Source: an uncultured Clostridia bacterium (GTDB lineage: Bacteria > Bacillota > Clostridia > Christensenellales > Borkfalkiaceae). From it: 64,000 nt of DNA. The stretch lies in assembly GCA_944368925.1 (NCBI GenBank), contig CALVXG010000003.1:124001-188000 (forward strand), written 5' to 3'. The notes below the pieces were generated by a model. It was not told the DNA's origin, did no database searches, and saw only the letters and a program-made list of their open reading frames with translations. Made by a program: the position numbers and the translations under genes. Shown piece after piece: positions 5,721 to 64,000 of the stretch (its first letter is position 1; each line of letters starts with the position of its first letter).

Positions 5721-8102
5721 ATGGATTTTCTGAAATTTTTAAAAGACAACATCGTCGTTTTCGACGGCGCCTTCGGTACGCTTTTGCAACAAAAAGCGGG
5801 GAACGTAGGCACGATTCCCGAACGACTGAACCTGGATAACCCCGCATTGATCTCCGAAATTTACCGCGACTACGCGCGCGCGGGCGCGGACGTAATCACC
5901 GCCAATACTTTCGGTGCGAACGAGCTCAAGATCGGCTCCGCCTCTCTCTGCAAAGAGATCGTACGGGCGGCCGTCGCCCTTGCGCGCAAAGAGGCGGGAG
6001 AGCACAAATTCGTGGCGCTGGACATCGGCCCGACGGGACAGCTTCTGGAGCCGATGGGCAGCCTCTCTTTCGAAGGGGCGTACAACGTCTTTGCGAACGT
6101 GGTCGAAGCGGGAAAAGAGGGCGCGGACGTCATTCTCATCGAGACGATGGCGGATCTGCAGGAGCTGCGCGCCGCCCTTCTGGCGGCAAAAGAGCACAGC
6201 GACCTGCCCGTCCTCTGCTCCATGACCTTCGAGGAAAACGGCAGGACTTTCGCAGGGTGCGACCCCGTGTGCTATGCCGTGACGGCATCGCCGCTCGCGG
6301 ACGCCGTGGGCGTAAACTGTTCGCTGGGGCCCGACAAGCTCCTGCCCGTCGTCCGCACCATTCTCGCCAATACGGACAAGCCCGTCATCGTACAGGCGAA
6401 CGCGGGTCTTCCCGATGCAAATCTTCATTACAGCATCGGCGCCGAAGAATTTGCCGCAAGCTATGAAATTTTCGTGCGCGAAGGGGTGCGCATCATCGGC
6501 GGGTGCTGCGGCACGACGCCCGAATACATTGCAAAACTGCGCGCGATCGCAGACCGAAGCAAACCGTTTTCTCTCGCGCACGCGCGCCGTTCCTGCGTTT
6601 GCAGCGCGACGAAAGCCGTCTTTGTCGACGGCGTGCGCGTGATCGGCGAACGAATCAACCCCACGGGCAAAAAGGCGATGAAGCAGGCGCTTCTCGAACA
6701 GAATTACGCCTTTGTCCGCACCCAGGCGATCGAACAGACGGAGGCGGGCGCCGATATCCTCGACGTCAATGCGGGACTTCCCGAAATCGACGAAAAAGAG
6801 ACGCTCGTGCGGCTCATCCGCGAAGTGCAGGCGGTCAGCGACCTGCCCGTGCAGATCGACTGCGGGAAACCCGAAGCCATCGCCGCCGCCCTGCGCATTT
6901 ACTGCGGCAAGGCCATCGTCAATTCGGTCAACGGCGAAGACAAGACCCTGCATTCCGTTCTGCCGCTCGTGCGAAAGTACGGCGCCGCCGTCGTGGGACT
7001 GACCATGGACGAACGCGGACTCCCCCACACCTGCGCGCAGCGGGTGGAGATCGCCGAAAAGATCATAAAAACCTGCGCGGAATACGGCATTCCCGAAGAG
7101 GATATCTACATCGATTGCCTCACGCTCACCGCCAGCGCCGAACAGGGTCAGGCGGAAGAAACCCTGCGCGCCATGCGCGAGATCAAACAAAAATACCGCG
7201 TCAAGACCGTATTGGGCGTGAGCAACATCTCGTTCGGGCTGCCCAACCGCCAGATCATCAACACCGCCTTTCTGACCGCCGCCATGTTTGCGGGCTTGGA
7301 TTGCCCCATCATCAACCCGAATATTCCCGAGAACATGCAGGCGGTGGCGGCGTACAAAGTGCTCGGCGGCGAGGATAAAAACTGCGTCGCCTACACCGAA
7401 AAATACGGTGCCGTGAAAATTGCGACGTCCGTGACCTCTTCCGCCGCGGCGCCCGCCGCACAAGATTCGGACGATATTTCCCACGCCATACGCAAGGGCC
7501 TGCCCGAAGCGGGCGCGATCGCCGCAAAAATGCTGCGGACGGTTCCGCCGCTGGAGCTGATCGACCGCTATCTGATCCCCGCCCTCAACGCCGTGGGCGA
7601 CGAATACGAAAAGGGAACGCTGTTCCTGCCGCAGCTCATCGCGGCGGCGGAAAGCGCGAAGCTCTGCTTCGACGAAGTGAAAAAACTTCTGCCCGGCGAG
7701 AGCACCGAGCGAGGCAAGATCGTGCTCGCGACCGTGCGCGGCGACATTCACGATATCGGCAAAAACATCGTAAAAACCGTTCTGGAAAACTACGGGTACA
7801 AGGTCATCGACTTAGGCAGGAACGTCCCGCCCGAGACGATCGCGGAGACGTGCGAACGCGAACACGTTTTGCTGTGCGGCCTCTCCGCACTCATGACGAC
7901 GACCGTCCCGTCCATGGAAGAAACCATCCGTCTCCTGCGGGAGCGGTGCCCTCAATGCCGCGTCATGGTGGGCGGCGCCGTACTCAACCCCGACTACGCC
8001 CGCAAGATCGGCGCCGACTGGTATTGCAAAGACGCCAACGCCGACGTGAAAATCGCGAGATCCATTTTCGAGAACGGCGAAAAAGTCCCGACCCTGCGCT
8101 GA
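5721..8102 (+). CDS. metH: Cobalamin-dependent methionine synthase lacking the activation domain
   Basis: This 793-residue protein has four modules in MetH order. The homocysteine-binding domain spans about 1-285, with zinc ligands Cys200 (GVNCS) and Cys262-Cys263 (GGCCG). The pterin/methyl-THF domain spans about 300-580 (GERINPTGKK, DILDVNAGLPE). The cobalamin cap helix bundle spans about 590-665. The Rossmann B12 domain has the lower axial ligand His677 in DIHDIGKN. The roughly 350-residue reactivation domain of E. coli MetH is absent and is supplied by the gene just upstream. It transfers methyl from methyl-THF to homocysteine and depends on cobalamin, as does the corrinoid locus at 57-64 kb. 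Confidence 0.95.
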   Translation: MDFLKFLKDNIVVFDGAFGTLLQQKAGNVGTIPERLNLDNPALISEIYRDYARAGADVITANTFGANELKIGSASLCKEIVRAAVALARKEAGEHKFVALDIGPTGQLLEPMGSLSFEGAYNVFANVVEAGKEGADVILIETMADLQELRAALLAAKEHSDLPVLCSMTFEENGRTFAGCDPVCYAVTASPLADAVGVNCSLGPDKLLPVVRTILANTDKPVIVQANAGLPDANLHYSIGAEEFAASYEIFVREGVRIIGGCCGTTPEYIAKLRAIADRSKPFSLAHARRSCVCSATKAVFVDGVRVIGERINPTGKKAMKQALLEQNYAFVRTQAIEQTEAGADILDVNAGLPEIDEKETLVRLIREVQAVSDLPVQIDCGKPEAIAAALRIYCGKAIVNSVNGEDKTLHSVLPLVRKYGAAVVGLTMDERGLPHTCAQRVEIAEKIIKTCAEYGIPEEDIYIDCLTLTASAEQGQAEETLRAMREIKQKYRVKTVLGVSNISFGLPNRQIINTAFLTAAMFAGLDCPIINPNIPENMQAVAAYKVLGGEDKNCVAYTEKYGAVKIATSVTSSAAAPAAQDSDDISHAIRKGLPEAGAIAAKMLRTVPPLELIDRYLIPALNAVGDEYEKGTLFLPQLIAAAESAKLCFDEVKKLLPGESTERGKIVLATVRGDIHDIGKNIVKTVLENYGYKVIDLGRNVPPETIAETCEREHVLLCGLSALMTTTVPSMEETIRLLRERCPQCRVMVGGAVLNPDYARKIGADWYCKDANADVKIARSIFENGEKVPTLR

Positions 8103-50719: not shown

Positions 50720-50743
50720 GACCGCTTCGGCGGTCTTTTTTTT
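50720..50743 (+). terminator. Terminator of the AraC-family gene
   Basis: GACCGC-TTCG-GCGGTC (50720-50735) is a UUCG-type tetraloop hairpin, followed by eight T. Confidence 0.9.
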
Positions 50744-52808
50744 ACGGTTCGAGAAAGACGCGCGCCTGCGTCTCCGCTTTTACTGAAACCAGCCTGCACG
50801 CCCTTCCGTTTTCAAAAACGGGAGGGCGTTCGGTATAGACAAACGCGTCCTGCCGCATTTCATACACGCGCACCGTCACGCGTGAAGGATACCCGTACCC
50901 GCTTAGGCCGAACACGTACGGCCTGCCCGTGTAATAATCGTCCGCCACCTTTTCCCCGTCCAGCAAAATTTCCGCACGGTCGCCCTCATAGCCGATCACC
51001 AGCCGCGCCCCGTGCACGTCTCCCCGAATCTCCCCGCATTGCAGCGTGTAGTCCGTGTACCCGTCTTTTTGTTCTTCTTTGCAGATTTGCACGGAAAACG
51101 CAGGTACGTTCATCTTTTTTTCGTACAAACCGAACACTCCGTCCTCGCCCGTACAGACAAATCCGCGCGGCGTAATTTTCGGCTTCGGATAAATTTTCAG
51201 CCGCGCGTCGGCCGCGCACAAGAGCGCGATCCCGCCTTCCGTCTCGTACATTTCCCCGTCCGTCATGAACAGCCGCTCTTTTCCCTCATAACAAAAACGC
51301 CAGGCGTCGCGCGCCTCCTGCCTGGTGAGAAGAAGAATCTTTCCGTTAGGGTCGCCCGCCGTTTCGATCTGCCCCAGTCCTTCGTCCGCCCAGAACACGA
51401 CGTCCCTGCCGTTGAGCGTGCAAAAGGGCGTGGCGAGCGCATACCGAAAATACGTCCCGCAGATCGTTCTCTCATACACAAACGCTCCGCATTGCCCGCT
51501 TTTGAGCGTAAAATCGGGGAACGTCACCCCTTTTGCGGGCGAAAACGCGTGCAAACGATGTTCCTTCGTCGGATAATGGCGCACATAGTTGTTGAAAAAC
51601 ACAAACCCGCCTTCCTCTTGCCCGCGCACCGCACAGCGCAGCGATTGCAGGTCGGCAGGATCGGAAGGATTGCCCGGCATCAGCCGTACGGGCAGCGTGC
51701 AGATCTCCCGTCCGAAACCGCGTATGAGACAATTCCACAATTTCAGCTCCCGACCGCTCGGGCGTATCTCGCCGTATTGCCCGATCGGCGCCTGAAAATC
51801 ATAGTTGAATTCGGGAAGATCGCAGCAAAACCCCGCCCGCAGATGTTTCTCGTCGCGGTATTCCTGCATCGTCGTCAGCGCGCCCGTCGGATTGATCCCG
51901 CCGTGAAATACGTAATACCCCAGCATCGCCACGCCGCTCCCGATCTTGCAAAGCGCCATCGCCCCGCAGTCTTCCCCCGTGATCACGGGACGGCGGATCT
52001 TCGTCACCTGGATCCCCGATCCCAGTTCCACCGTCGCGTACGGGTACGCCGAATGCGCTATGGTCGCTTCCATCTCCTTTCTGCCCGTGTCGCTGCCTAT
52101 GTTCGCGTCGTTCGGATTGTCCGTAAACAGATATCCGTCCATCGGCGCAAGCTCGCCCGTCTGCGCTTCCCACGGCGCTTCGCAATAATTCCCCCATACG
52201 GGGATCGCTTCCCCCGTCGCCGCTTGCCCCCAGCCCGTCGCAAAATACAGGGGTACGTCCATCCCTTTTTCTTTCAGCATGGCGATCAGCGCCGCAATGT
52301 GCTCGTCGCCGATCCCCTTCCCCTGCACGCCCCATTGGCTGTATTCGTTCTCCACCTGCACCGCAACGATCGGCCCGCCGTCTTTGTACGTGAGCCCCGC
52401 ACATTGCGCGCACAGCTGCGTAAAATACCTGTCTACATCCGCCATGTACCCCGCATCGTTGGAGCGCGCACGATATTTCTTGCGCTCCACCCAGTCGGGA
52501 AACCCGCCGTTGCGCACTTCCGCGTGCACCCACGGCCCTACCCGCAGACACAAATACATTCCCGCCGCTTTTACCTCTTGCGCAAAGCGCCGTAAATTCT
52601 TGCTCCCGCGAAAATCAAAATGCCCTTCCGTCTCTTCGTGGTGGATCCAACAGCAGTACGAGGAGACAATATCCACCCCCAGCGCCTTCATCTTGGCAAG
52701 ATCTTCCCGCCAGCTTCTGCAATCGCTGCGGCTGTACGGATATTCCCCCATCACGGGAAACCACGGCTCCCCGTCCTTTTCAAAATACCGCGCATTGTAT
52801 GTGATCAT
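50742..52808 (-). CDS. GH35-type beta-galactosidase-like enzyme
   Basis: This 688-residue cytoplasmic protein has an N-terminal TIM barrel with GH35-like motifs: GEYPYSRSD near residue 22, RVGPWVHAEVRNGGFPDW near residue 88, VAVQVENEYSQWG near residue 147 (acid/base Glu in NEY), and VELGSGIQ near residue 265 as the likely nucleophile region. Beta-sandwich domains follow. GH35 enzymes release terminal beta-galactose. The ATG at 52808 has GAGGTG 5 bases upstream. It lies 13 bases after the rhamnosidase gene in the same operon. GH42 or another clan A family is an alternative. Confidence 0.75.
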   Translation of the reverse strand: MITYNARYFEKDGEPWFPVMGEYPYSRSDCRSWREDLAKMKALGVDIVSSYCCWIHHEETEGHFDFRGSKNLRRFAQEVKAAGMYLCLRVGPWVHAEVRNGGFPDWVERKKYRARSNDAGYMADVDRYFTQLCAQCAGLTYKDGGPIVAVQVENEYSQWGVQGKGIGDEHIAALIAMLKEKGMDVPLYFATGWGQAATGEAIPVWGNYCEAPWEAQTGELAPMDGYLFTDNPNDANIGSDTGRKEMEATIAHSAYPYATVELGSGIQVTKIRRPVITGEDCGAMALCKIGSGVAMLGYYVFHGGINPTGALTTMQEYRDEKHLRAGFCCDLPEFNYDFQAPIGQYGEIRPSGRELKLWNCLIRGFGREICTLPVRLMPGNPSDPADLQSLRCAVRGQEEGGFVFFNNYVRHYPTKEHRLHAFSPAKGVTFPDFTLKSGQCGAFVYERTICGTYFRYALATPFCTLNGRDVVFWADEGLGQIETAGDPNGKILLLTRQEARDAWRFCYEGKERLFMTDGEMYETEGGIALLCAADARLKIYPKPKITPRGFVCTGEDGVFGLYEKKMNVPAFSVQICKEEQKDGYTDYTLQCGEIRGDVHGARLVIGYEGDRAEILLDGEKVADDYYTGRPYVFGLSGYGYPSRVTVRVYEMRQDAFVYTERPPVFENGRACRLVSVKAETQARVFLEP

Positions 52809-52821
52809 ACGCACCTCTCTT

Positions 52822-55083
52822 TCAGAACGCTTCGCGAACGTCCGCGCGCTCATACCCTTGCGGGATCCGCACCTTCTCGACCCCGTCCCTGCGCTCGAAC
52901 ACCAATTCTTGTTTGCCTACGGGTATGCGGATGCGACAATCGATCTTTTCCGCCGCGTCCGTAAACAGGATCTTGTTCCCATGCACTCCCGCAAATCCGC
53001 TCACGTACCCGACCAGAAGATTCGCCGCATAGGACGCAAATCCGTGATCCAGGCTCCCGCACGGGTTGTCGTTCTCCCAAAGAGTGCCCGTCCGCTGCGC
53101 CATGCCGTAAAAGAAATCTACGCACTCCTGCCGCAGCTGCGCCCGTTTGTCCGACCGCGCCAACATCATCAGCCGCAGATAGTTCCCGATAAACGCGTTG
53201 GATTTGTATACCTGCGGATAGGTCACCTCCACGTCCCGCATCGCACCGAATTTTTCCGTCAGTAATTGAAACAGCTTCGGATACGTCTGCGGCGTCGCCA
53301 CCCCCGAAAAAAATGCGTAGTACTGGCACGTCTCCGTAATGTGCCCGAGAAGTTTCGTCCCGCCTTCACACCGCACGCGGTTGTCTTCGAAAAATTCCCC
53401 GTCAAACGAATATTCGCGCACGGCCGCGCGTACCTTATCCGCCTTTTCCAGGAGCGCACCGTCCGAATACAGCCGTCCCGCACTCTCCAACGCCTTCGCA
53501 TACAACATGTTCGACGGAAAATTGATCCCCTTTATAAACTCTTCGTCGTTCGCCTTGCTCCACTCCACGAATACCCAGCTCTCCAAATTCTCCAAAAGCC
53601 CGTATTCGTTGCGGTACTTTTCAAAAAACGAAAGAACGCCGTAGACCTTTTCCCTGCTCGCCTGCGCCACCGAAAAATCACCGCTCCGCAAATACTGGTC
53701 GTATAACTCCACCACGTACCACATCGCCCAGTTCGGTATATACTGCGCATTCACAAAATCGGCAGGATAACACATCGGGATCATCTTGTCGGGTATGTAC
53801 GAAAGATGCGGGCTCATCGCATAATTCTGCAAAAACGCCGCTTCCACCTTGTTTTCCCCCGTGAAAAGCTGCTCCGCCTTCGCCGAAAAATAAGAATCGC
53901 ACAACCAGCCCGCCCGCTCCCGCGAAGGACAGTCCGTCAGAAGATCCACCGCATTGTGACGGAACGTCCTGCACGCCGCGTCCATGATCGCGTTCAGCCG
54001 CTCGTCCGCACACTCGAACGCAAACCGCCCCGTGTCCGGATTTTCGTACTTCTGCATATACACCCGCGGCGTACCCGTCTTCCCCTGCCGCAACAATACC
54101 TTCACAAACCGCGCCGTGTACGGCTCAAACGTAAAATGTCTGTATTCCCCCGCCTTCAGACGGTATTCGATAATGTTGACGCACGCATTTCGGTACGGCA
54201 ATACCTCCGCAGGCCCTTCCGGCGTCTTGCGCAGATCCATCTCGTCAAACAATATGTACAGATGCGCGTCTTCTTCCGCCTTTACCTCTATCCCGATAAA
54301 ACCCGTTTCGGCCCGCCCGAAATCATACACCGCATACGCACCCGCCTGCAATCCTTCCCGCTTTCCGCTCTTTTCATAGACAAGATTGCATACGTAATCG
54401 GACGGATTGCTCTGCCATTCCCCGATCGGATATATGCGCAGCTCTTCGATCTCCATGCAAATATTGCGGTACGGCTCCCCCTCTCCCGCACGAAACGTGC
54501 CGTCTTCGATCTTTTCCGCCTCCGCACACGCATAGTCGGGATAATCCGTCACCCGCGGCAACAACTTCCCCGAAACGACCTCTACGGGCAGCGCCGCATT
54601 CTCACCGAACCCGCGCGCATACGTTTCGACGGGCGACTCGGCAAACACATAACTCTCCGTAAACGCCCGCTGGTAACTGAAACGGCTCACCTTCTGCAAC
54701 CGCTCCGTATAACGCCGCACATAAAAATCTCTGCCCGTCCAATACCGCGCCTGCCCGTTTTCCGTGATCTCCGCCTGCAAAAACGCGGGCTGGTCCAATA
54801 CCCAATAATTCATCGTATTGTACCCCGCCGCCTCGATAAACAATATGTTCTCTTCCTTCAGCCCGCGCAAAGGGATCCTGTCCACCCGAAAATATCCGTG
54901 CGCCGCCCGTGACGGCCCAAACGCAAGAAATTCCCCGTTCAAATACGCCTTGTAACAGTTGCTCGCCGCAATCAACAGTTCCGCATTCTCCGCCCTTTTG
55001 AAGCGCACACAGAATGCACAGATACTGTTCAACGTCTTTTCTTCCTTTTCCAGCCATACGGGAATCGCTTTCTGAAATTGCAT
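52822..55083 (-). CDS. GH78-like alpha-L-rhamnosidase, second paralogue
   Basis: This 753-residue protein is a paralogue of the 698-residue protein at 27.2 kb. It has the same N-terminal AASNCYKAYLNGEF beta domain, the barrel signature AVDLLTDCPSRERAGWLCD (residues about 373-391), YIPNWAMWYVVELYD and ENLESWVFVEWSKAN. It has no signal peptide, so it acts on imported oligosaccharides. It heads a two-gene operon with the GH35-like gene and is transcribed from the operator-bearing promoter at 55.2 kb. Its role fits intracellular trimming of a rhamnose- and galactose-containing glycan. Confidence 0.78.
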   Translation of the reverse strand: MQFQKAIPVWLEKEEKTLNSICAFCVRFKRAENAELLIAASNCYKAYLNGEFLAFGPSRAAHGYFRVDRIPLRGLKEENILFIEAAGYNTMNYWVLDQPAFLQAEITENGQARYWTGRDFYVRRYTERLQKVSRFSYQRAFTESYVFAESPVETYARGFGENAALPVEVVSGKLLPRVTDYPDYACAEAEKIEDGTFRAGEGEPYRNICMEIEELRIYPIGEWQSNPSDYVCNLVYEKSGKREGLQAGAYAVYDFGRAETGFIGIEVKAEEDAHLYILFDEMDLRKTPEGPAEVLPYRNACVNIIEYRLKAGEYRHFTFEPYTARFVKVLLRQGKTGTPRVYMQKYENPDTGRFAFECADERLNAIMDAACRTFRHNAVDLLTDCPSRERAGWLCDSYFSAKAEQLFTGENKVEAAFLQNYAMSPHLSYIPDKMIPMCYPADFVNAQYIPNWAMWYVVELYDQYLRSGDFSVAQASREKVYGVLSFFEKYRNEYGLLENLESWVFVEWSKANDEEFIKGINFPSNMLYAKALESAGRLYSDGALLEKADKVRAAVREYSFDGEFFEDNRVRCEGGTKLLGHITETCQYYAFFSGVATPQTYPKLFQLLTEKFGAMRDVEVTYPQVYKSNAFIGNYLRLMMLARSDKRAQLRQECVDFFYGMAQRTGTLWENDNPCGSLDHGFASYAANLLVGYVSGFAGVHGNKILFTDAAEKIDCRIRIPVGKQELVFERRDGVEKVRIPQGYERADVREAF

Positions 55084-55609: not shown

Positions 55610-56869
55610 TCAGCCGAGGACGCTCTTGCGGTATTTGGAGGGCGTGACGCCCACTATTTTTTTAAAGATCTTGATAAAATAATTTCCGTCGCGGTATCCC
55701 ACGCAATCGGATACGTCTTCCACAGACCTGCCTTCCATCAGAAGCTCTTTTGCCCTGCTGACGCGCACTTTGGTCAGATAATCGCTGAACGTTACCCCCA
55801 TTTCGCGACGAAACAGGTGGCTTAAATAATACCCGCTCACAAACACGTTCTGCGCCAGAATGTCCAGGTTCAGATCTTCGAAGTAATGCGCGTTGATGTA
55901 CTGGATCGCTTTGTACAGATGCTCGCTTGTGTTTTTCTTGCCGCGGCTTTCGTAGACAGCGTCGAGAAACCCGTCCAGAATTTCCACCGTTTCGCGGCAG
56001 ATATCCGAAAAATCCGCGTTTTCCAAAAGCAGGCGCGAACTTTTCTTGATCACGCCCGTCAGCGTGGAAAGGGGCGCGCCCGCCTCGACCGCGCTGCGCG
56101 ACAAAAACGCCGTAAATTCGTAGAGCTTCGCCTTTACGATCTCCAAATCACCGCTCGCATACGAAAAGATTTCGTTTAAAAAACGGTTGATGATCTGCTT
56201 TGCCTGGCTCTTGTCCCCCATCTGCACGGAAGCGATCAGCTCCTTTTCCAGCTCGATCGGGTATTTGTTGTAATGCGGCTGCGATTCGCGGATCTGCATT
56301 TCTTTCGCCGCGCGCAGCCGCTCCATGTTCATTTTCGTGATTTCCAGCCGCTGTTCTATGTACTTGCGCTCTTCCTGCAGCATGTACCGTATCAGCATGG
56401 TCAGCGTTTCCGCTACGCTCGTCATGCTCTTGCAGTCGATCTGGCGTATGTTCGACGGGTCGCACTTTTGCGCGTCCAACCCCACCTTTTCACAATTTTT
56501 ACGGAATTCTTCCGCAAAAAAATCGTCCTTGTCCCACAAGATGACCGGCCCCGTCGTGATGAATCCCAACAACTCTTCTTCCAAAAGGATCGGCGTGATA
56601 CACATGATCAGCCCGCACGGCGTCTCGTAAATGTACGCCGAACGGATCTCCGCCGCCTTCTTTCCGCTGAATACGATGCTTTCACGGCACGCAAAATGCC
56701 CCTTGCCGTATTCACAGATACAGCCGGGGTTGCGTACGCACAACTGTTCCTCTCCTTCCGCATTGTAAAGCGCCACGTCCAGCCCGCTCGTCAAAGAAAA
56801 GTTCCGCAGCAGTTTTTCCAGTTGTTTGAAATTCAGGATCTGTTTGAGTCCCGCATCATTCAGTTTCAT
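55610..56869 (-). CDS. AraC-family regulator with PocR ligand-binding domain
   Basis: This 419-residue protein has an N-terminal PocR-type sensory domain (about 8-165) with Cys-rich features (RNPGCICEYGKGHFACRES, ETPCGLIMCITPIL), a central helical region and a C-terminal AraC double HTH (LNLDILAQNVFVSGYYLSHLFRREMGVTF and SVEDVSDCVGYRDGNYFIKIFKK, near residues 325-410). PocR domains sense small organic ligands such as propanediol in cobalamin-dependent pathways, and the Cys residues may also sense redox or metal. It is the last gene of the corrinoid methyltransferase operon and overlaps the gene before it by 14 bases, so it probably controls this locus. Confidence 0.85.
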   Translation of the reverse strand: MKLNDAGLKQILNFKQLEKLLRNFSLTSGLDVALYNAEGEEQLCVRNPGCICEYGKGHFACRESIVFSGKKAAEIRSAYIYETPCGLIMCITPILLEEELLGFITTGPVILWDKDDFFAEEFRKNCEKVGLDAQKCDPSNIRQIDCKSMTSVAETLTMLIRYMLQEERKYIEQRLEITKMNMERLRAAKEMQIRESQPHYNKYPIELEKELIASVQMGDKSQAKQIINRFLNEIFSYASGDLEIVKAKLYEFTAFLSRSAVEAGAPLSTLTGVIKKSSRLLLENADFSDICRETVEILDGFLDAVYESRGKKNTSEHLYKAIQYINAHYFEDLNLDILAQNVFVSGYYLSHLFRREMGVTFSDYLTKVRVSRAKELLMEGRSVEDVSDCVGYRDGNYFIKIFKKIVGVTPSKYRKSVLG

Positions 56870-57398
56870 TTCCGCCTAAAAACACCAATGTAAAATACGT
56901 TACCGTATTCTCCCCATTAGTATAATTGATTTTTACCTTTTTGGCAAGGGATACGACGTTGATCCCGCACGCCTCCACCGAACTTTTTGCCTTTTCGGGA
57001 AAACGGCAAGGGGCGGGATATGCACACGTTTTGCACACGTTGCAGCCGCCCGCGCCCAGCATCACGCTTCCCTTCGGCAGGACGGGGCGGATCAGATCTT
57101 CCGTCTTCTCGTGCTCTCCGCGCGCACGCTCCATCCCTTCCAGATCGTAACAGTCCTCGATTTCGTGCTTTGTCGTGAACACGAACGCCTGCGGATACTT
57201 CGAATATTTCGCTTTCAGCTCTTCCAGCGTTCCCACGTTGGGCGGGCATTGCCAGCACTTGTTGTAATTCCCGCAGTAATTGGCGCGGCACGCCGCCACC
57301 ACTTCCTCCGAAAATTCGATATCCGCGAAATTCAGCTCCGCGTACTGCCAGATCTCCTTTCCCGCCGCCTGCAGGATCTCTCTCGTAGAATTACGCAT
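56856..57398 (-). CDS. DUF2284 cysteine-rich metal-binding protein
   Basis: This 180-residue protein has the DUF2284 pattern: CRANYCGNYNKCWQCPP near residues 37-53 (four Cys), a central helical part, and GGCNVCKTCAYPAPCRFPEKA near residues 117-137 (five Cys). The cysteines could bind an Fe-S cluster. DUF2284 genes are common in corrinoid methyltransferase loci of anaerobes, but their function is unknown. It overlaps the RACo-type gene by 8 bases and the regulator gene by 14. Confidence 0.85.
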   Translation of the reverse strand: MRNSTREILQAAGKEIWQYAELNFADIEFSEEVVAACRANYCGNYNKCWQCPPNVGTLEELKAKYSKYPQAFVFTTKHEIEDCYDLEGMERARGEHEKTEDLIRPVLPKGSVMLGAGGCNVCKTCAYPAPCRFPEKAKSSVEACGINVVSLAKKVKINYTNGENTVTYFTLVFLGGNETE

Positions 57399-58860
57399 TT
57401 TCCTCTCCGAAATTCATGTTTTCGATGTACGCGTCCATAAACTCGGGCGACGCCGAAAGGTCGATATACTCCGCTTCCCGCGCGATCCTTTCGGCCGCCT
57501 TTATGCTCTCTTTGCGGCAAAGGCACTCCCGCGCCCCTGCCAGCGCCGTGTTTCCGACCGCTTCAATCTTACCCGCAAGCGCCGCGGGGAACAACCCCAC
57601 TCCGACCGCGTTTTTCTTGTCGAGATAAAACCCGAGCCCGCCCGCGACATACAGCTTTTTGAGCGCGTCGTACGGCACTCCCGCCGTGGAGAGCAATACG
57701 CTGATGCCCGCGCAGATCGCGCTCTTGGCAAGCTGAAACGCGCGCACGTCCGCCTGCGATATATATACCTTGTCGCTGATATAAAATTTGTTCGTCCCGT
57801 CCGTAAAGGCGCCCGTCTCGTCCACGATGCCCTTGCGCACCATGAGCGCGATCGCATCCACCAGCCCCGCGCCGCAGATGCCCGTCGCTTCGCCGCCGCC
57901 GATGACGGTGCAGACGATCTTTCCGTCCCGTTCGCGCACGCTGTCGATCGCGCCCGCCACGCCGCCCGTGCCGCACTCGATGTTTGCCCCTTCAAAACAC
58001 GGCCCAGCCGCCGTGGACGTCGCATACAGTTTTCCGTGCGCGTGCAGGATCATTTCTCCGTTCGTGCCGATATCCGCCAGAAGGTTTACCCCCTCTTCCA
58101 CGCGCGAAGTCAGCGCGCCGACCACCACGTCCGACCCGAAATACGCGGACGTCGAGGGCAATACCACCACCTCTTCCGCCGAAAGCCCCAACTCTTCGCC
58201 CGAAAGGTGCACCGTGTCCAGAAATTCCGCACGGAAAGGATATTGCCCGATCCCGTGCACGTCTTTCCCCAAAAACAGGTGCAGCATGGTCGTGTTCCCG
58301 CACACCGCAAGGCGCTTCAGCTTCTTGAACGCAAACTTTTCGGCAAACCGCGCGATCGCCTCGCGCGTCTGCGCCAGCACGCATTCCTGCATCTGCTTTC
58401 CCTTGCCTTCGTCCGCCGCCGCTATGCGGCTCAATACGTCCGCTCCGTACGCGCCCTGCCTGTTCAGCGTCCCGAATTTGTCCAGCTCCCGCCCCGATTT
58501 GAGATCGGTCAGCGAAAACGCGAGCGTCGTCGTGCCGATGTCCAGCGCCACGCCGTACCCTTCCTCGCCGTCCGTTTCCGTACGGGTCGGCGCCGTATAG
58601 GTGAGGCCGCCCCCTTCCGTCTCGAACACTTCCACAAACGCGTCGCCTTCCACGTTCGCAAGGCAGGACAGCACGTACCCGTCCTTTTCCCCTTCGAACG
58701 TTCCCTCGATCACGCGCACGCGGCACTTGCCGCACTTCCCGTTGCCGCCGCAGCGCGCCGCGATCGCATATCCTTTCCCCTGCAAAAAGGAAAGAAGATT
58801 TTCCCCCTTTCCGCAGTCGTATTCCTTGATCTTCGAACCCGATAAAACTTTTATAAGCAT
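57391..58860 (-). CDS. RACo-type reductive activator of corrinoid proteins
   Basis: This 489-residue protein begins with a 2Fe-2S ferredoxin domain (C-x5-C-x2-C near residues 37-46 and a distal Cys near 69), a linker and a large ASKHA ATPase domain: VALDIGTTTLAFSL near residue 105, LLADIGTNGEM near residue 260, GGGEATGICGAGL near residue 320, and AGGLGFYLDKKNA near residue 395. RACo proteins use ATP to reduce inactive Co(II) corrinoid back to Co(I) in methyltransferase systems. The ATG at 58860 overlaps the radical SAM gene by 10 bases. It is central evidence for corrinoid-dependent methyl transfer in this locus. Confidence 0.92.
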   Translation of the reverse strand: MLIKVLSGSKIKEYDCGKGENLLSFLQGKGYAIAARCGGNGKCGKCRVRVIEGTFEGEKDGYVLSCLANVEGDAFVEVFETEGGGLTYTAPTRTETDGEEGYGVALDIGTTTLAFSLTDLKSGRELDKFGTLNRQGAYGADVLSRIAAADEGKGKQMQECVLAQTREAIARFAEKFAFKKLKRLAVCGNTTMLHLFLGKDVHGIGQYPFRAEFLDTVHLSGEELGLSAEEVVVLPSTSAYFGSDVVVGALTSRVEEGVNLLADIGTNGEMILHAHGKLYATSTAAGPCFEGANIECGTGGVAGAIDSVRERDGKIVCTVIGGGEATGICGAGLVDAIALMVRKGIVDETGAFTDGTNKFYISDKVYISQADVRAFQLAKSAICAGISVLLSTAGVPYDALKKLYVAGGLGFYLDKKNAVGVGLFPAALAGKIEAVGNTALAGARECLCRKESIKAAERIAREAEYIDLSASPEFMDAYIENMNFGEENA

Positions 58861-59801
58861 GGCACTTCCCAACCGTTTTCCGCAAGCAGTTTCACGCAGT
58901 CTTCGACGCTGTAACCGCGCCCTCGCGACGTTTCCGTCTCCGTGTCCCGCGGGTTCACGCCGTACTCCGCATACAACTGGTTCACCCCCGCGAGCATCGC
59001 GACGGGATTCACTTCGTGCACGTTCATGGACACGGGCGGGCGCACCGCGAGCATCGCCACCGCCGCGATCTTCGCAAGCTCGCGCGAACTGATCTCGCCC
59101 TCGCGCTCCTTGCGCGTGCCGCACACCCCCACGCGCCGCATCGCCGCCATGTATTTCACATTCAGACGCTGCGCGCGCAAAATTTCGTCCGCGATCTCCG
59201 CGTACGTGTGCTCTTTTCCGATCGGCTCGACGCAATAGTACAGATCGAGCCCTGCCGAAGCGATCGCTTCCAGCGTCTTTTCCCGCCGCGCCGCGGGAAT
59301 ATCCGTATCCGTCCCCTCGCGAAGACGCACGATATGATACGCGCCCGTCGCGCCGCTTTCGCGCAATTTTTCGGCATACGTACCGTCAAAATCGCCCGTG
59401 TTCACCACAAGGCGCATCGAGGACGGGATCGCCTTGCGCACCGCTTTGACGACGCCGAGAAACGCTTCTTTGTCATAACATTCCGTGGTCATCAGAAACA
59501 GGTCGCTGACCTGCGGCGTGATCGCTTTCTCTACTTCCGCCAGCGTCTCTTCCGCCGTGCGCGTGAACCTGCCGCCCACCACGAAGTGCGATTTTGCCAT
59601 CGAACAGAACGAACAGTTCCCCGGGCACGGATTGCTGTCCAGCCCCACCTGGCAGAAAACGTACCCCCTGCGGAAAGTGCGGCGCGCATACGCTTCCGAC
59701 TCCGCCAACAGCTCGTAAAATTCCGCCGAATGCGTATCCAGCGAAAGCAAACGGATAATTTCCGCTTTGTCCGTCCTCTTTTCTTCCGAAAAATTCAGCA
59801 T
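58851..59801 (-). CDS. BioB-like radical SAM protein
   Basis: This 316-residue radical SAM enzyme has the 4Fe-4S motif CPGNCSFCSM (CxxxCxxC, residues about 59-67) and a TIM-barrel (TTECYDKEAF, VVNTGDFDG, GATGAYHIVRLREGT). The C-terminal half resembles the BATS domain of the biotin synthase/methylornithine synthase group (YYCVEPIGKEHTYAEIADEI, NPVAMLAGVNQLYAEYGVNPRDTETETSRG; both by position near 200 and 282). The substrate is unknown. Its place in the corrinoid operon suggests it makes or remodels the methyl donor, the acceptor or a cofactor. It overlaps the neighbours by 7-10 bases. Confidence 0.85.
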   Translation of the reverse strand: MLNFSEEKRTDKAEIIRLLSLDTHSAEFYELLAESEAYARRTFRRGYVFCQVGLDSNPCPGNCSFCSMAKSHFVVGGRFTRTAEETLAEVEKAITPQVSDLFLMTTECYDKEAFLGVVKAVRKAIPSSMRLVVNTGDFDGTYAEKLRESGATGAYHIVRLREGTDTDIPAARREKTLEAIASAGLDLYYCVEPIGKEHTYAEIADEILRAQRLNVKYMAAMRRVGVCGTRKEREGEISSRELAKIAAVAMLAVRPPVSMNVHEVNPVAMLAGVNQLYAEYGVNPRDTETETSRGRGYSVEDCVKLLAENGWEVPCL

Positions 59802-60685
59802 AACGTATATGCAACCCCGCTCTCTTTTAAAACCTGCCCCGCTCTCTCACGCAGCGAAAACTTCCCCGCCGCCAGAAGAATGAGAAAATTCCCTTCCTTG
59901 TCCGTCTCTTCCCAATGCGGTTTTCCGTCCGCAAATTCGAATACCGTATATCCGTTTTCACGGCGAACGATCCCCTTTATCCGATGACAGAACGCCGAAA
60001 GCTTTTCGCCCAGCGCACAGAGCTCTTCCGCGGAAAGGATCTCCTGAAATTCCGCTTTTGCCTTCTGCACGGTGATGTCCTCGATCTGCGCGGGCAGGGT
60101 GCGCTCTTTGACCGCAAAGTTTTCGTCTTCCAGACGCGCCCCTGTCGTAAAATACAGCGGCGCGTCCGCATTCAGCGCGCGCACCGCGCCTTCCAGCCGC
60201 ACAAGGCTCGCCTTGTCCGCAAGATCCGTCTTGTTCACCAAAATGACGTCCGCCGCCGCGATCTGCATCTTGACCGCATTTAGGGCATAGAGTACTTTTT
60301 CCGCGTTCCGCGCATCCACGATGCATACCGCCCCGCGCATGCGGTACGGCTCTCTCACCCGCCCGTTGATAAACGCCAGAATCTTCCGCATCTGAAAAGG
60401 ATTGGAAAGCCCCGACGTTTCCACGATCACGCGCTCGTACCCCTCTTCCGAAAGGGCGATCATCGCTTCCGCAAACTTTTCGCTGCGGCAGCTGCAGAAC
60501 ACCGACCCGTCGAAAATACTCTCCACTTTCACCGCCGCGTGTTTTAGCAGCGCGCCGTCTACGTCTTCCGCCCCGAAATCGTTTACCAAAACCGCGTTCC
60601 GCCCCGGGTGCCGCGCCAGAAAATCTTTGACAAACGTCGTCTTCCCGCTGCCCAGATACCCCAGCACAAACCACACTTCCGTCAT
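59795..60685 (-). CDS. CobW/COG0523-family GTPase
   Basis: This 296-residue G3E GTPase has Walker A GYLGSGKTT (residues about 9-17), the metal-binding region VFCSCRSEKF near residue 62, a VETSGLSNPF Walker B-like segment near residue 88 and NKTD near residue 146. The usual CxCC motif of zinc metallochaperones reads CSCR here, so the third Cys is missing. The family delivers metals or metal cofactors. Here a role in loading or handling the corrinoid, its Fe-S activator or the zinc of the UroD-type enzyme is plausible. The ATG at 60685 overlaps the preceding stop by one base (TGATG). Confidence 0.85.
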   Translation of the reverse strand: MTEVWFVLGYLGSGKTTFVKDFLARHPGRNAVLVNDFGAEDVDGALLKHAAVKVESIFDGSVFCSCRSEKFAEAMIALSEEGYERVIVETSGLSNPFQMRKILAFINGRVREPYRMRGAVCIVDARNAEKVLYALNAVKMQIAAADVILVNKTDLADKASLVRLEGAVRALNADAPLYFTTGARLEDENFAVKERTLPAQIEDITVQKAKAEFQEILSAEELCALGEKLSAFCHRIKGIVRRENGYTVFEFADGKPHWEETDKEGNFLILLAAGKFSLRERAGQVLKESGVAYTLC

Positions 60686-62043
60686 CAGAGCTTCGCCTCG
60701 ATTTCCTTGCTCAGTTCGTCCAGCCCCGGTATGATCGACGAGTATTTCAGCTCCCCGTTGATCAGCATGCTCGGCAGCTGCTTGATCCCCATCTTCATCA
60801 CGCGCGCGATGTTCTCTTTCACCGTGAATTTGTATTCCACGACGTCGATCTTGTCGCCGTATTTCTCCTTCGCCGCATTCGCCATGCCCATCATGTACGT
60901 GCACGCCGCACAGCTGGACGAATCCAGCGTGAATACCTCGATCAAAGGCTTTTTCAGATGCGCATAATCGGGGATCACGATGTCGAATTTACTGTAATCC
61001 GTCGCTTCGTAATTTTTGACGAGCTCCTTCACCTTTTCGTATTCGAGCACCGCCTGCGCCGCGCCGATCGTGTTCTCCACGGGCACGTCGTACGGCATGT
61101 CACAACCCGGCGATACGATAAAATTGTGGTTGCTGTCCTTCACGCTGTCGATCAGCTCCACCACGTATTTCATGTTGTCCTGCTGCGATCCGTGCAGCAT
61201 CACCGTCGTCAGCGGTATGTTCCCGCCGACCGCCACGTTGTATTTCTCCGTGATCGGACGTATGTCCGCTATGCGGATATTCTCGTCCACCGAGATCGAA
61301 TCGGGATTCGTCTTGCACATACATTCGATGTTCCGCGTCGCGTCCCCGCAGACAAAGAAAGAACTGTATACGCCCATCTTGCGTATCTCTTCAAAAATTT
61401 TCGTGTACGGCGCAGTCAAAAATTCTTCAAAATGATCGGAACTGATCTGCGATACCAACGGGTCTACCACCGCAATGACGTCCATCCCCGCTTCCACGTA
61501 CAACTTTGCTTCCGCGATGATAAAATCCGCACAATACGCGATCAGATCAGAAACATATTCGGGTTCGTCGAACATGTCCATGAATATCTCCGTCCCCCTT
61601 AGATGCGACGCCAGCGTGAACGGCCCGCATACCAGCCCGTACAGAGCCGTCGTCTCCCCTACGCTCGCTTTCAGCCGCTCCATCGTCCGCAGGATCATCG
61701 GCAGCCTGCCGCTCTCTTTCGTCGGCATCTTGCAGCGGCACGGTATCAGCCGCGCTTCGTCGTACGGATGCGTCTTCACCGTCGGAGGCGTGTCCTCCGA
61801 CCACTGCAATTCGCACCCGAGTATCTCCGCTTCCACCTGCAGATCAAAAAGCACCGGCTGCCCGTCCGGACGATACAGCTTGTTCACTTCCATCAGCGCA
61901 TCGTACAGTTTGTCTTCGTCTTTGAGTACCTGGATCGCCGTCGCCCCCGTCAACTTCCCCGCATGGATCCCCGCAAACGGCACCCACGCAGGCCGCGCCG
62001 CCTTCTTGTGCTCCAATATGTCAAACAAAAGTTGCTTCCCCAT
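60685..62043 (-). CDS. UroD-family methyltransferase fused to a thioredoxin-like domain
   Basis: This 452-residue protein has an N-terminal UroD/MtaA-type TIM barrel (about 1-345): WVPFAGIHAGKLTG, FDLQVEAEILGC near residue 64, YGLVCGPFTLASHLRG near residue 134, and a candidate zinc-ligand segment FFVCGDATRN near residue 230. A C-terminal thioredoxin-like domain (about 366-452) has the active site C378-A-A-C381 and QLPSMLINGE with the cis-Pro. UroD-family enzymes move methyl groups between corrinoid proteins and thiols or folates. The fusion suggests thiol-redox control or methyl transfer to a thiol. AAGGAAG precedes the ATG. Confidence 0.88.
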   Translation of the reverse strand: MGKQLLFDILEHKKAARPAWVPFAGIHAGKLTGATAIQVLKDEDKLYDALMEVNKLYRPDGQPVLFDLQVEAEILGCELQWSEDTPPTVKTHPYDEARLIPCRCKMPTKESGRLPMILRTMERLKASVGETTALYGLVCGPFTLASHLRGTEIFMDMFDEPEYVSDLIAYCADFIIAEAKLYVEAGMDVIAVVDPLVSQISSDHFEEFLTAPYTKIFEEIRKMGVYSSFFVCGDATRNIECMCKTNPDSISVDENIRIADIRPITEKYNVAVGGNIPLTTVMLHGSQQDNMKYVVELIDSVKDSNHNFIVSPGCDMPYDVPVENTIGAAQAVLEYEKVKELVKNYEATDYSKFDIVIPDYAHLKKPLIEVFTLDSSSCAACTYMMGMANAAKEKYGDKIDVVEYKFTVKENIARVMKMGIKQLPSMLINGELKYSSIIPGLDELSKEIEAKL

Positions 62044-62077
62044 TCTTCCTTGTCCTTTCTTTATTTTTTTATAAAAG

Positions 62078-62102
62078 AAAGGCAGCCCAAAAGGCCGCCT
62101 TT
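62078..62102 (-). terminator. Partial terminator between the corrinoid protein and UroD-thioredoxin genes
   Basis: A 10-bp stem (62078-62087 with 62093-62102, one G-T pair) is followed on the minus strand by CTTTCTTTTAT. It lies 15 bases past the corrinoid protein stop and could lower expression of the downstream genes relative to the corrinoid protein. Confidence 0.65.
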
Positions 62103-62116
62103 TTTACACCGATCTC

Positions 62117-62749
62117 TCAGTCAAAATACGAACGCGCTTTCTCCGCCGCGCTCGCCGCGTCCGGCGTGTACGCATCCGCACCGATCTCGTCCGCAAACGC
62201 CTGCGTTACCGGCGCCCCGCCGACCATCACTTTCACTTTGTCGCGCAAGCCCGCCGCCTTCAGCGCTTCGATAATGTCTTTCTGATACATCATCGTCGTC
62301 GTCAGAAGCGAGGACAAACATACGATGTCCGCATTGTTGTCCTTCACCGCCTGCACCACTTTGTCCGCATCGCAGTCAACTCCCAGATCGATCACGCGGA
62401 TCCCCGTGCCCTCGATCATCATCTTCACAAGATTCTTGCCGATATCGTGCAGATCTCCCTTCACCGTGCAGATCACCGCCGTGCCCACAGGCTCTACGCC
62501 CGATTCCGCCAATGCAGGTTTCAACACCGCCAGCGCCGCATTCATCGCGCGCGCCGCAATCAAAACTTCCGGTACGAAAATTTCATTGTTCTTGAACTTT
62601 TCCCCGACAATCCCCATTCCGACGATCAGTCCCTGCGTCAGAATATCCTTCGGCGACGTCCCCGCTGCCAGCTCTTCCGTCACCAGCGCCGCCAGATCTT
62701 TCGCCTTGCCGCGCTGCAGCAAAGCCGACATTTCTTCAAATTTTGCCAT
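62117..62749 (-). CDS. Corrinoid (cobalamin-binding) methyltransferase protein
   Basis: This 210-residue protein has an N-terminal helical cap domain (about 1-85, with LIVGMGIVGEKFKNNEIFVPEVL) and a Rossmann B12-binding domain: KGDLHDIGKNLV near residue 98 with the axial His in DLHDIG, VIDLGVD, CLSSLLTTTM and GGAPVTQAFADEIGADAY (by position). It is the methyl carrier between the UroD-type methyltransferases flanking it and the partner of the RACo-type activator. The ATG at 62749 is preferred (GGAGG 11 bases upstream); ATG 62767 would leave a leader of only about 9 bases. The promoter carries a repeated upstream element. Confidence 0.93.
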   Translation of the reverse strand: MAKFEEMSALLQRGKAKDLAALVTEELAAGTSPKDILTQGLIVGMGIVGEKFKNNEIFVPEVLIAARAMNAALAVLKPALAESGVEPVGTAVICTVKGDLHDIGKNLVKMMIEGTGIRVIDLGVDCDADKVVQAVKDNNADIVCLSSLLTTTMMYQKDIIEALKAAGLRDKVKVMVGGAPVTQAFADEIGADAYTPDAASAAEKARSYFD

Positions 62750-62782
62750 CTCCCGTATTGCCTCCATGCAATTCTTTCCACT

Positions 62783-62890
62783 ATTATACACCCTTCTCTT
62801 CCAAAAAGATATGGCTTCCCTTGTCGCAAAAGAGTAATATCTTGCTCTGTATTCGGCCTTGCAACTCTTTAAATAGTAAAATCTTGCTCT
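62783..62890 (-). promoter_or_regulatory. Promoter of the corrinoid operon with two direct-repeat activator sites
   Basis: On the minus strand the -10 is TATAAT (62788-62783) with a weak TATCTT -35 at 17 bp. Upstream are two copies of AGAGCAAGAT-n-TTACT: plus-strand positions 62833-62848 and 62875-62890, 15 of 16 bases identical, with a centre-to-centre distance of exactly 42 bases, four helical turns. A poor -35 and paired direct repeats at about -57 to -114 are typical of AraC-family activation. Confidence 0.7.
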
Positions 62891-62931
62891 TTCTGTACTT
62901 TTTTGCGGCGGCGCACCCGCATCGCCGTTTT

Positions 62932-64000
62932 TTACGGCTTGATCTTCTTGATCTCGTCGATATAGTACTGCACGAGTTCCCATTTCGTCCCCGGCATCAG
63001 ACGATGGTCGGGGCAAGGAATGTATCCGCCCAGATCGACCAGCCTGCGGATACGCTCGATCTCCGCGTCCACCGCCGCCTTGTCCTTGCGAAGCGCCGTT
63101 TTGTCCACCGCGCCCACGCCGCGCATCTCTTTCCCGAATTTCTTGCGCGCAGGCTCAAACTGATCGCCCCACGTCCCGATCTCGATGGGGAACATCGTGT
63201 TCACCCCGTTCTCGAACCAAATCGGCAGAAGTTTTTCCGTCACGCCGTCGCAGTCCAGCGAAATAATGTCCAATCCGTATTTTTTGCAGAGTTCGTTACG
63301 CTTTTTGTAATGCTTCGCACACAGTTCTTCAAACATTACAGGCGAAATCAGCGGCCCGTTCTTGAAACAAATATCTTCCCAATAATGCGCAAAATCAAAT
63401 TTCGCCCCCGTCTTGAGCACCGCTTCCGCTACCTGATACTGCATCTCGGCGTACGTGTCGATGATCTCCGCAAACAGATCGTAATCGTCACAGATCATGT
63501 ACGACATCCCGATCACCGAAAGCATGTTCCGTATATCCCCGAGCACGCTCCCCAAATGCAGGCCGATCGGCGTGTCCCCGCGGTCTTTCTCAAACTGCTC
63601 TTTGAAATATTCCACGGGCACCCTGTCCGCCGAAAACTGCATCTTCGGCTTGTATAACTCCTCGAACGCCGCCCTGTCTTTCAACAGATAATCGTCCTCC
63701 GCAGGAATCGAACCCGCTCCGTCGCGCACCCGCTCGATCAGACCCACGCTGTTTTGCACCCGCTTGAATCCGTCCGGCAGCACTTCCAAAACTTTCGTCT
63801 CAAACCCGGGATTCAACCCGAAATTCCCGCACCGCACCCTGTACCAGTTAAAATCCCAGCCCAGAATCTTGTTCAGCTCCGCATCCGCGTCGTTTCCGTC
63901 CGCCCACGCCGCCGCAAGCTCCTTGCTGATATGTCCCTGTTGCGCCCATTCGTCCAAAAGCTCGTTCCAATACCCGAAATGCACCGCAGGCAGCCTGTCT
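62932..64000 (-). CDS. UroD-family methyltransferase, N-terminus cut by window edge
   Basis: The frame is open from 64000 to the stop at 62932 and encodes at least 356 residues of a UroD-type TIM barrel beginning DRLPAVHFGYWNELLDEW. Features include a WDFNWYRVRCGNFG region, PIGLHLGSVLGDIRNML, GAKFDFAHYWEDICFKNGPLISP and SLDCDGVTEKLLPIWFENGVN. The GTG at 63984 is probably an internal Val, because the family motif continues upstream to the window edge. Next to a corrinoid protein, it is the likely first methyltransferase (donor side) or its partner. The substrate is unknown. Confidence 0.85.
   Translation of the reverse strand, partial: DRLPAVHFGYWNELLDEWAQQGHISKELAAAWADGNDADAELNKILGWDFNWYRVRCGNFGLNPGFETKVLEVLPDGFKRVQNSVGLIERVRDGAGSIPAEDDYLLKDRAAFEELYKPKMQFSADRVPVEYFKEQFEKDRGDTPIGLHLGSVLGDIRNMLSVIGMSYMICDDYDLFAEIIDTYAEMQYQVAEAVLKTGAKFDFAHYWEDICFKNGPLISPVMFEELCAKHYKKRNELCKKYGLDIISLDCDGVTEKLLPIWFENGVNTMFPIEIGTWGDQFEPARKKFGKEMRGVGAVDKTALRKDKAAVDAEIERIRRLVDLGGYIPCPDHRLMPGTKWELVQYYIDEIKKIKP

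Follow-up and report, generated by a model that had tools for sequence, protein, structure and literature searches.

At the end of a 64,000-nucleotide (nt) stretch of DNA from an uncultured Clostridia bacterium lies a gene cluster that appears to encode a corrinoid-dependent methyl-transfer system. This stretch, referred to as the window, comprises positions 124001-188000 of contig C3, in a genome of 2.7 Mb in 44 contigs. Eight minus-strand genes are present in the cluster and, from 5' to 3', they were assigned through Pfam to UroD1, CorC, UroD2Trx, CobW, radical SAM, RACo, DUF2284, and PocR/AraC. An original prediction, made from the letters of the window alone, had named these families in this order, and Pfam agrees for all of them, with two matches falling below their cut-offs. 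The genes are given below, where MT1 and MT2 stand for the first and second methyltransferase. Loci and genomes used for comparison are cited by L and G numbers.

62932..64000, minus strand: UroD1, divergent UroD-superfamily protein, candidate MT1 (Pfam URO-D, 36 bits)
62117..62749, minus strand: CorC, stand-alone corrinoid carrier of about 210 amino acids (Pfam B12-binding_2 and B12-binding)
60685..62043, minus strand: UroD2Trx, MtaA/MtbA-like protein with a C-terminal thioredoxin domain, candidate MT2 (URO-D, 174 bits)
59795..60685, minus strand: CobW/COG0523-type GTPase, putative metallochaperone of UroD2Trx (Pfam cobW, 115 bits)
58851..59801, minus strand: BioB/HydE/PylB-like radical SAM protein (Radical_SAM, 26.8 bits, under the cut-off of 29.5)
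57391..58860, minus strand: RACo, ATP-dependent reductive activator of corrinoid proteins (RACo_C_ter, 224 bits, with Raco_middle and Fer2)
56856..57398, minus strand: DUF2284 cysteine-rich protein, possible electron donor of RACo (Pfam DUF2284, 151 bits)
55610..56869, minus strand: PocR-type sensor and AraC-type DNA-binding regulator (Pfam PocR and HTH_18)

The full reading frame of UroD1 is 371 amino acids (L001:8933-10048), with the gene start 47 nt outside of the window. RACo has the domains expected of it in Pfam, the middle and C-terminal domains together with a 2Fe-2S domain. Most gene starts were predicted to overlap the previous stop, and they do so at five of the seven junctions, by 1 to 14 nt. 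The distances are +182 nt between UroD1 and CorC, +73 nt between CorC and UroD2Trx, and then -1, -7, -10, -8, and -14 nt. The claim that all eight genes act together is better limited to the seven-gene core from CorC to PocR, as UroD1 is set apart by 182 nt and is sporadic at this site. It was found at this position only in G000 and G005, and a 49% identical counterpart is located in L027. Because the 182-nt gap carries a tandem repeat and a TATAAT box, the core is probably a seven-gene unit headed by CorC, with the operon proper starting at the corrinoid gene. The elements in the gap are as follows.

62864..62887, minus strand: operator-like repeat 1 upstream of CorC (GCAAGATTTTAC...), with pattern sites in relatives
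62822..62845, minus strand: operator-like repeat 2 (GCAAGATATTACTCTTTTGCGACA), 32.8 bits with a matrix built from these sites
62783..62788, minus strand: TATAAT, a -10-like box 39 nt upstream of the CorC ATG, with a TATAAT-like column block conserved in the alignment

The regions upstream of CorC were aligned for 13 loci (L010 was not among them). The repeat GCAA(A/G)AT(A/T)TTAC... was found by pattern at 21 sites in 11 of these 13 regions. Tandem pairs are present in ten, with a spacing of 42-43 nt in seven and 31-32 nt in three, or approximately four or three helical turns, and a TATAAT-like box then follows. We infer that PocR binds these tandem repeats. A weaker form of the operator (14.4-17.3 bits) occurs within 300 nt upstream of MT2-B, an MtaA-like protein of relatives that is 336-338 amino acids long and has HNCG...GC in 12 of 12 aligned sequences, nine of them from the genus. 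This was seen at six of the ten loci tested and at six of the eight from the same genus, a ninth same-genus MT2-B not being in the eight. These sites were outside of the matrix training set, and Markov-shuffled window sequence gave about two matches above 11 bits per 64 kb over both strands. Where DUF2284 genes are separate from the core, operator-like sites are likewise present in front of them, in the divergent spacer (L142:7188-7217 and L145:6292), and DUF2284 may thereby belong to one regulon with the core.

Four other genomes, L007/G020, L009, L010/G010, and G005, keep the order of the seven core genes. PocR is cut by the contig end in L007/G020, and the core of G005 is split over two contigs. 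Since the order recurs in this way, the arrangement is not due to chance, and the search for the same gene order that had been proposed with the original prediction finds the core recurring sporadically. L008 has the core without RACo. In L156, CorC, RACo, DUF2284, and PocR are present without the trio of UroD2Trx, CobW, and radical SAM. G002 possesses only CorC, UroD2Trx, and a truncated CobW frame, and radical SAM was not found in this genome. The truncated frame (L141:9068-10576) ends after about 130 residues and by eye runs into leucine-rich-repeat-like sequence, which looks like a deletion or an assembly error. The position of UroD1 is occupied by a different protein with no Pfam family in L008 and by an unrelated-looking protein in L007. 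In a sample of 61 genomes (the organism's own and 60 relatives), radical SAM is present in four, own included. A contig scan with one single protein gave three close loci, and the wider spread described below rests on separate searches of 391 genomes of the class. An Rfam scan of L001, L008, and L009 gave no match.

UroD2Trx is the genome's only strongly MtaA-like protein. It matches 4ay7, a methylcobamide:coenzyme M methyltransferase, at an E-value of 1e-17, and scores 144 bits against TIGR01463, below that model's cut-off of 235 and, in NCBIfam, below every curated cut-off. The other UroD proteins scored, which are six of the eight divergent ones and, separately, UroD1, reach at most 51 bits against any MtaA-type model. 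A feature absent from the original prediction is the thioredoxin domain at residues ~369-446, with C378-x-x-C381 (Thioredoxin_3, 23.5 bits, under the cut-off of 24.8). An alignment of 46 rows was made from the window and 45 loci. The thioredoxin CxxC is kept in 45 of the 46 rows, and in all 46 the His of the MtaA H-x-C motif is replaced by Phe and both metal Cys are kept. UroD2Trx was found in 40 of the 391 sampled genomes at an E-value of 1e-60 or better, own included. In L109:10308-10577, L110:8974-9261, and L113:10184-10453, a separate small thioredoxin-like protein with CxxC was seen by eye directly next to UroD2Trx. There is also a second UroD2Trx clade, with frames of about 550 amino acids and CobW, in L114:5887-14189 and L116:324-7615. 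By eye, this clade adjoins genes resembling formyl-tetrahydrofolate synthetase, methylenetetrahydrofolate reductase, and pterin methyltransferase, which may hint at a folate link within it.

CobW is a near-constant partner of the MtaA-thioredoxin protein. The 45 loci consist of 41 from the class sample and four genus relatives (L007-L010). The class sample gave 43 UroD2Trx matches, of which the own one and G239, with in-frame stops, are outside of the 41. CobW is directly downstream of UroD2Trx, on the same strand and within 400 nt, at 38 of the 45 loci. At the remaining loci it is directly upstream (two), within 3.2 kb (two), nearby on the other strand (one), or was not found (two). It is downstream in all four of L007-L010.

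The radical SAM protein is an accessory to UroD2Trx loci. It has CxxxCxxC at residues 59-66, and the three cluster Cys are invariant in 13 aligned sequences. It is present at eight of the 45 loci, four of which are the genus relatives that were fetched for carrying it; the class sample contributes 4 of 41. With these counts, and with the core of L156 lacking the trio, an obligatory role was rejected. The two genes do co-occur: UroD2Trx was found in 9 of 13 genomes with radical SAM vs 31 of 378 without it (p = 3e-7), and in 8 of 12 vs 31 of 378 when the own genome is left out (p = 2e-6). All five genomes with a close radical SAM (at least 45% identity, own included) have UroD2Trx, as do four of eight with a distant one. 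Biotin synthase function is not supported, with 21.9 bits against the BioB model (cut-off 225) and HydE as a PDB match only at an E-value of 0.05. Distant relatives of the radical SAM protein (30-36% identical) lie beside a three-gene ABC transporter at six of eight loci (L031-L035 and L037, but not L030 and L036). In L034, L035, and L037, the substrate-binding protein of the transporter is an NMT1 match, and against the SsuA sulfonate family (cut-off 163.5) it reaches 137-141 bits in L034 and L037. In L034, this unit is located by eye just after cobalamin-synthesis-like genes.

URO-D matches nine proteins of the genome, namely UroD2Trx and eight divergent UroD proteins, with an additional UroD frame just below the cut-off (L082:10972-12201, 22 bits). 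CorC is the only B12-binding_2 match besides MetH. If the first-step UroD enzymes are corrinoid methyltransferases, they have to share CorC, the single stand-alone corrinoid protein. Among the 61 genomes, a stand-alone corrinoid protein is present in 19 of 19 with at least two UroD genes vs 0 of 42 others (Fisher p = 3e-16, which overstates independence because the genomes are related). Such a protein was defined as a B12-binding_2 match in a frame of less than 420 amino acids, a limit chosen after seeing the list. In one of the 19, G055, the match is a fragment at a contig end and might belong to a different protein, and G039 and G046, with a single UroD gene each, were counted among the 42. 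UroD genes are present in 13 of the 37 genus genomes, and all 13 have UroD2Trx or MT2-B. Four have UroD2Trx only (including G002 with its truncated cluster), eight have MT2-B only, and G020 has both. A control based on 24 genus members without UroD, all of which also lack UroD2Trx and MT2-B, was dropped as circular, both proteins being PF01208, and carried no weight.

The genes surrounding the UroD genes can indicate what the system acts on. Three other genes of the window serve as context here and below.

52822..55083, minus strand: alpha-L-rhamnosidase-like protein adjoining the core (Bac_rhamnosid6H, 71 bits)
50742..52853, minus strand: family 35 glycosidase, context (Glyco_hydro_35, 166 bits)
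5721..8102, plus strand: MetH without a recognized activation domain, the only Pterin_bind match found in the genome, about 47 kb from the cluster

The eight divergent UroD genes are on contigs C3, C10, and C11; six are in same-strand glycosidase runs and two flank the cluster. On C10 (L081), four UroD genes alternate with rhamnosidase-like, two family 95-like, and family 31 enzymes, and a sub-threshold family 127-like enzyme is also present. UroD genes overlap the family 95 and the family 31 genes by 4 nt, and another UroD gene is 21 nt away from the latter. On C11, L082 contains UroD, a trehalase/MGH1-like enzyme, and family 3, while L083 has a rhamnosidase-like gene as well as UroD 18 nt from a family 36-type (Melibiase) enzyme. 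Next to the cluster itself are the rhamnosidase-like and family 35 genes, and UroD3 is a few kb off, as is a full GH78-type rhamnosidase. Rhamnosidase-type domains are within 10 kb at three of the four own loci (chance 0.8%).

In relatives, 20 UroD loci were chosen by hand among the matches listed, with a preference for those far from contig ends. At seven of them, Pfam confirms a sugar- or glycan-related gene no more than two genes from UroD. These are aldose epimerase (L161), sulfatase (L164), fucose isomerase and rhamnose mutarotase (L167), family 2 (L170), family 130 (L171), families 38 and 20 (L174), and family 38 (L177). In L167:2567-8170, UroD genes are in one run with the L-fucose isomerase and L-rhamnose mutarotase genes, which hints at methylated fucose or rhamnose as a possible substrate. 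In L174:1988-10602, L171:569-4899, and L177:6731-9631, UroD genes have neighbors of family 38 (alpha-mannosidase), family 130, and family 20, which points tentatively to methylated mannose or N-glycans.

Plant, algal, fungal, and animal glycans commonly contain methylated sugars. We consider the chances about even that the cluster is the shared hub of an anaerobic, corrinoid-dependent O-demethylation of methylated glycan sugars. In this reading, UroD-type MT1 proteins, at least eight in number and UroD1 included, would take the methyl group off an O-methylated sugar or glycan and load it onto the Co(I) corrinoid of CorC. UroD2Trx would pass it from CorC to a thiol, giving a methyl-thioether and Co(I)-CorC, and the thioredoxin domain could serve as its redox or thiol partner. 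RACo, with ATP, would repair Co(II) or oxidized CorC, probably fed by DUF2284, and PocR/AraC would turn the core on through the tandem operators. CobW could be the metal chaperone of UroD2Trx, and the radical SAM protein might make or modify either the acceptor or UroD2Trx. The roles of CobW, DUF2284, and radical SAM are guesses from family knowledge. If this is correct, an oxygen-free route in gut bacteria would explain how methylated glycans are finished in the gut, many UroD-annotated genes would gain a function, and methylated thiols would gain a further source. The MtaA-thioredoxin protein is singled out as an assayable candidate for the second methyltransferase.

Several observations weigh against sugar demethylation. 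The case is built from genes and sequence, namely their content, co-occurrence, linkage, repeats, and motifs, and the substrate class and acceptor are deduced from these. Part of the linkage could simply reflect the richness of the genome in glycosidases, and the linkage count has no random-gene control. No strictly confirmed sugar gene stands at 13 of the 20 UroD loci chosen in relatives. Three of these are doubtful (DUF4838 in L162, a sugar-type regulator and permease in L165, and a maltose-acetyltransferase-like gene in L178), six were scanned and no sugar gene was found (L166, L169, L173, L175, L176, and L180), and four had no neighbor scanned (L163, L168, L172, and L179). The AlphaFold model of UroD2Trx is unusable (mean confidence score, pLDDT, of 44). 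Common control of the UroD loci in L081-L083 by the operator of the cluster is not supported, as no site above 20 bits was found there; the best, 18.1 bits, is near a rhamnosidase-like gene (L083:3204).

The metal motifs of the MT1 proteins give a weak argument for O-demethylation. In the published scheme, H-C-C marks S- and Se-methyltransferases, whereas O-type enzymes have carboxylates or non-ligands in place of one or both Cys (PMC10418091). UroD1 has D-C-D at the aligned places, with CPDH downstream, and H-C-C was found at the aligned positions in none of the eight MT1 proteins. D-x-D replaces H-x-C in four of the eight, the one in L082 being read by eye. The other four keep H-x-C, but a Cys is missing where the second metal Cys aligns, though some of them have one nearby. 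The argument is weak because the alignment is loose, a Cys lies about two residues or less from the aligned place in several MT1 proteins, and zinc is absent from some O-demethylases and from CdmB (PMC13222342).

The trio of UroD2Trx, CobW, and radical SAM appears to substitute for the H-C-C protein MT2-B of relatives, which argues for a thiol-type acceptor. A thiol is therefore the probable acceptor, although the argument from sequence is indirect and UroD2Trx itself is F-C-C. The original prediction suggested that the pathway may feed folate or another thiol acceptor. Folate is not supported, since no pterin-binding protein other than MetH was found in the genome, and tetrahydrofolate as the direct acceptor was rejected as the main reading for this reason. 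The thiol is the better of the two suggestions. A broader proposal, somewhat less probable than the glycan role of the cluster, is that gut Christensenellales and relatives carry out anaerobic glycan O-demethylation in which many UroD proteins from separate glycan operons feed one hub. The MtaA-thioredoxin, CobW, and radical SAM proteins, as a new module, would then unload the methyl group to a special thiol. This is possibly a sulfonated, coenzyme-M-like one, because the distant radical SAM relatives adjoin SsuA-like, sulfonate-type transporters.

Other substrates can be considered. The rhamnosidase-like genes near the cluster could free methoxylated flavonoids, the UroD proteins then demethylating the aglycones as in acetogens. 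Known UroD-type MT1 proteins do act on methoxyarenes (PMC10418091, PMC13222342). This aromatic route is unlikely, as UroD genes are also beside families 95, 31, 36, 3, 38, and 130, fucose isomerase, and rhamnose mutarotase, to which sugars fit, and the pterin-type MT2 of those systems was not found in a genome where only MetH binds pterin. It is less likely still that UroD1 demethylates a methyl-S or methyl-Se compound with UroD2Trx passing the methyl group to a thiol, as proposed for type 1 mlp clusters. UroD2Trx is MtaA-like, and mlp clusters likewise combine a corrinoid protein, Ram, and MtaA-like proteins with no pterin methyltransferase (PMC10418091). However, UroD1 has neither an NCBIfam MtaA-type match nor H-C-C at the aligned places, UroD2Trx is without the motif His, and the linkage is to glycan genes.

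Methionine synthesis is the least probable of these explanations. RACo would reactivate MetH, and UroD2Trx would methylate homocysteine from methyl-CorC. Homocysteine is a thiol, and the window's MetH has no recognized activation domain. However, MetH-length B12-binding frames are common in genus members that have no stand-alone corrinoid protein or UroD, so the cluster is not needed for MetH. MetF is present, and a 219-amino-acid gene between metF and metH (window 5056-5715), with no family match, may by eye be a separate activation subunit of MetH.

The proposed sugar demethylation by the cluster can be compared with described systems. The original prediction of a distinct methyl-transfer pathway is partly supported, in that the evidence favors a distinct corrinoid system with a regulator and probably an uncommon donor. 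Type 1 mlp clusters likewise place an MtaA-like protein in one operon with a corrinoid protein and RACo/Ram, are without a neighboring pterin methyltransferase, and are spread sporadically among anaerobes (PMC10418091). As in these, the corrinoid protein and RACo have the same direction within 2 kb (UroD2Trx to RACo is 1.8 kb), and no tetrahydrofolate methylase is within 20 kb. In contrast, there is one MtaA-like protein here vs two or more there, as UroD1 matches no NCBIfam model at an E-value of 0.001. This count was judged by NCBIfam models, whereas the paper's criterion is percent identity to a characterized enzyme. The motif of UroD2Trx is F-x-C vs H-x-C, with Phe for His in 46 of 46, while His-Cys-Cys is invariable in type 1 mlp except in several Mlps1 (PMC10418091). 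In addition, the partner MT1 genes here adjoin glycan genes. For type 1 mlp, the accessible text of PMC10418091 gives no account of a thioredoxin fusion, CobW, radical SAM, DUF2284, or PocR. That radical SAM and CobW are non-standard members, as was originally stated, is consistent with this text, where radical SAM, CobW, DUF2284, and PocR have no mention.

Acetogen O-demethylases and the Cdm chloromethane system share with the cluster a UroD-superfamily MT1, a stand-alone corrinoid protein, and an activating enzyme (PMC13222342). By family, the MT1, corrinoid protein, and activator of a UroD-type O-demethylase of the OdmB/VdmB kind all appear to be present here. Unlike those systems, the MT2 candidate is an MtaA-thioredoxin protein and not pterin-type, and there are many MT1 proteins per hub. 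Tetrahydrofolate is the usual acceptor in the acetogen systems (PMC10418091), and a pterin-binding MT2 that would methylate it was not found, Pterin_bind being only in MetH. MtaA/MtbA (4ay7) is of the same sequence family as UroD2Trx and MT2-B, but UroD2Trx has a bacterial host, a thioredoxin domain, Phe in place of the metal-motif His, and scores below the cut-offs. The only sugar demethylase met in the searched literature is a P450 monooxygenase acting on 6-O-methyl-D-galactose (PMC10033563). It too removes a methyl ether from sugars, but it is aerobic and yields formaldehyde. No description of corrinoid demethylation of glycans was found in the searched literature, which is mostly outside of subscription journals, and none combining uroporphyrinogen decarboxylase, glycoside hydrolase, methyltransferase, and corrinoid.

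Six relatives have genes for a lipoprotein and a small membrane protein ahead of CorC (L011:5505-6578, L141:12644-13943, L142:7417-8593, L156:6935-8068, L159:1665-2837, and L010:11289-12450). This pair has no Pfam match and was not found in the window or in L001. By eye, the membrane protein resembles the S-component of an energy-coupling factor transporter. An operator-like site above 20 bits is present upstream of the lipoprotein in five of the six, and the pair suggests a co-regulated corrinoid uptake.

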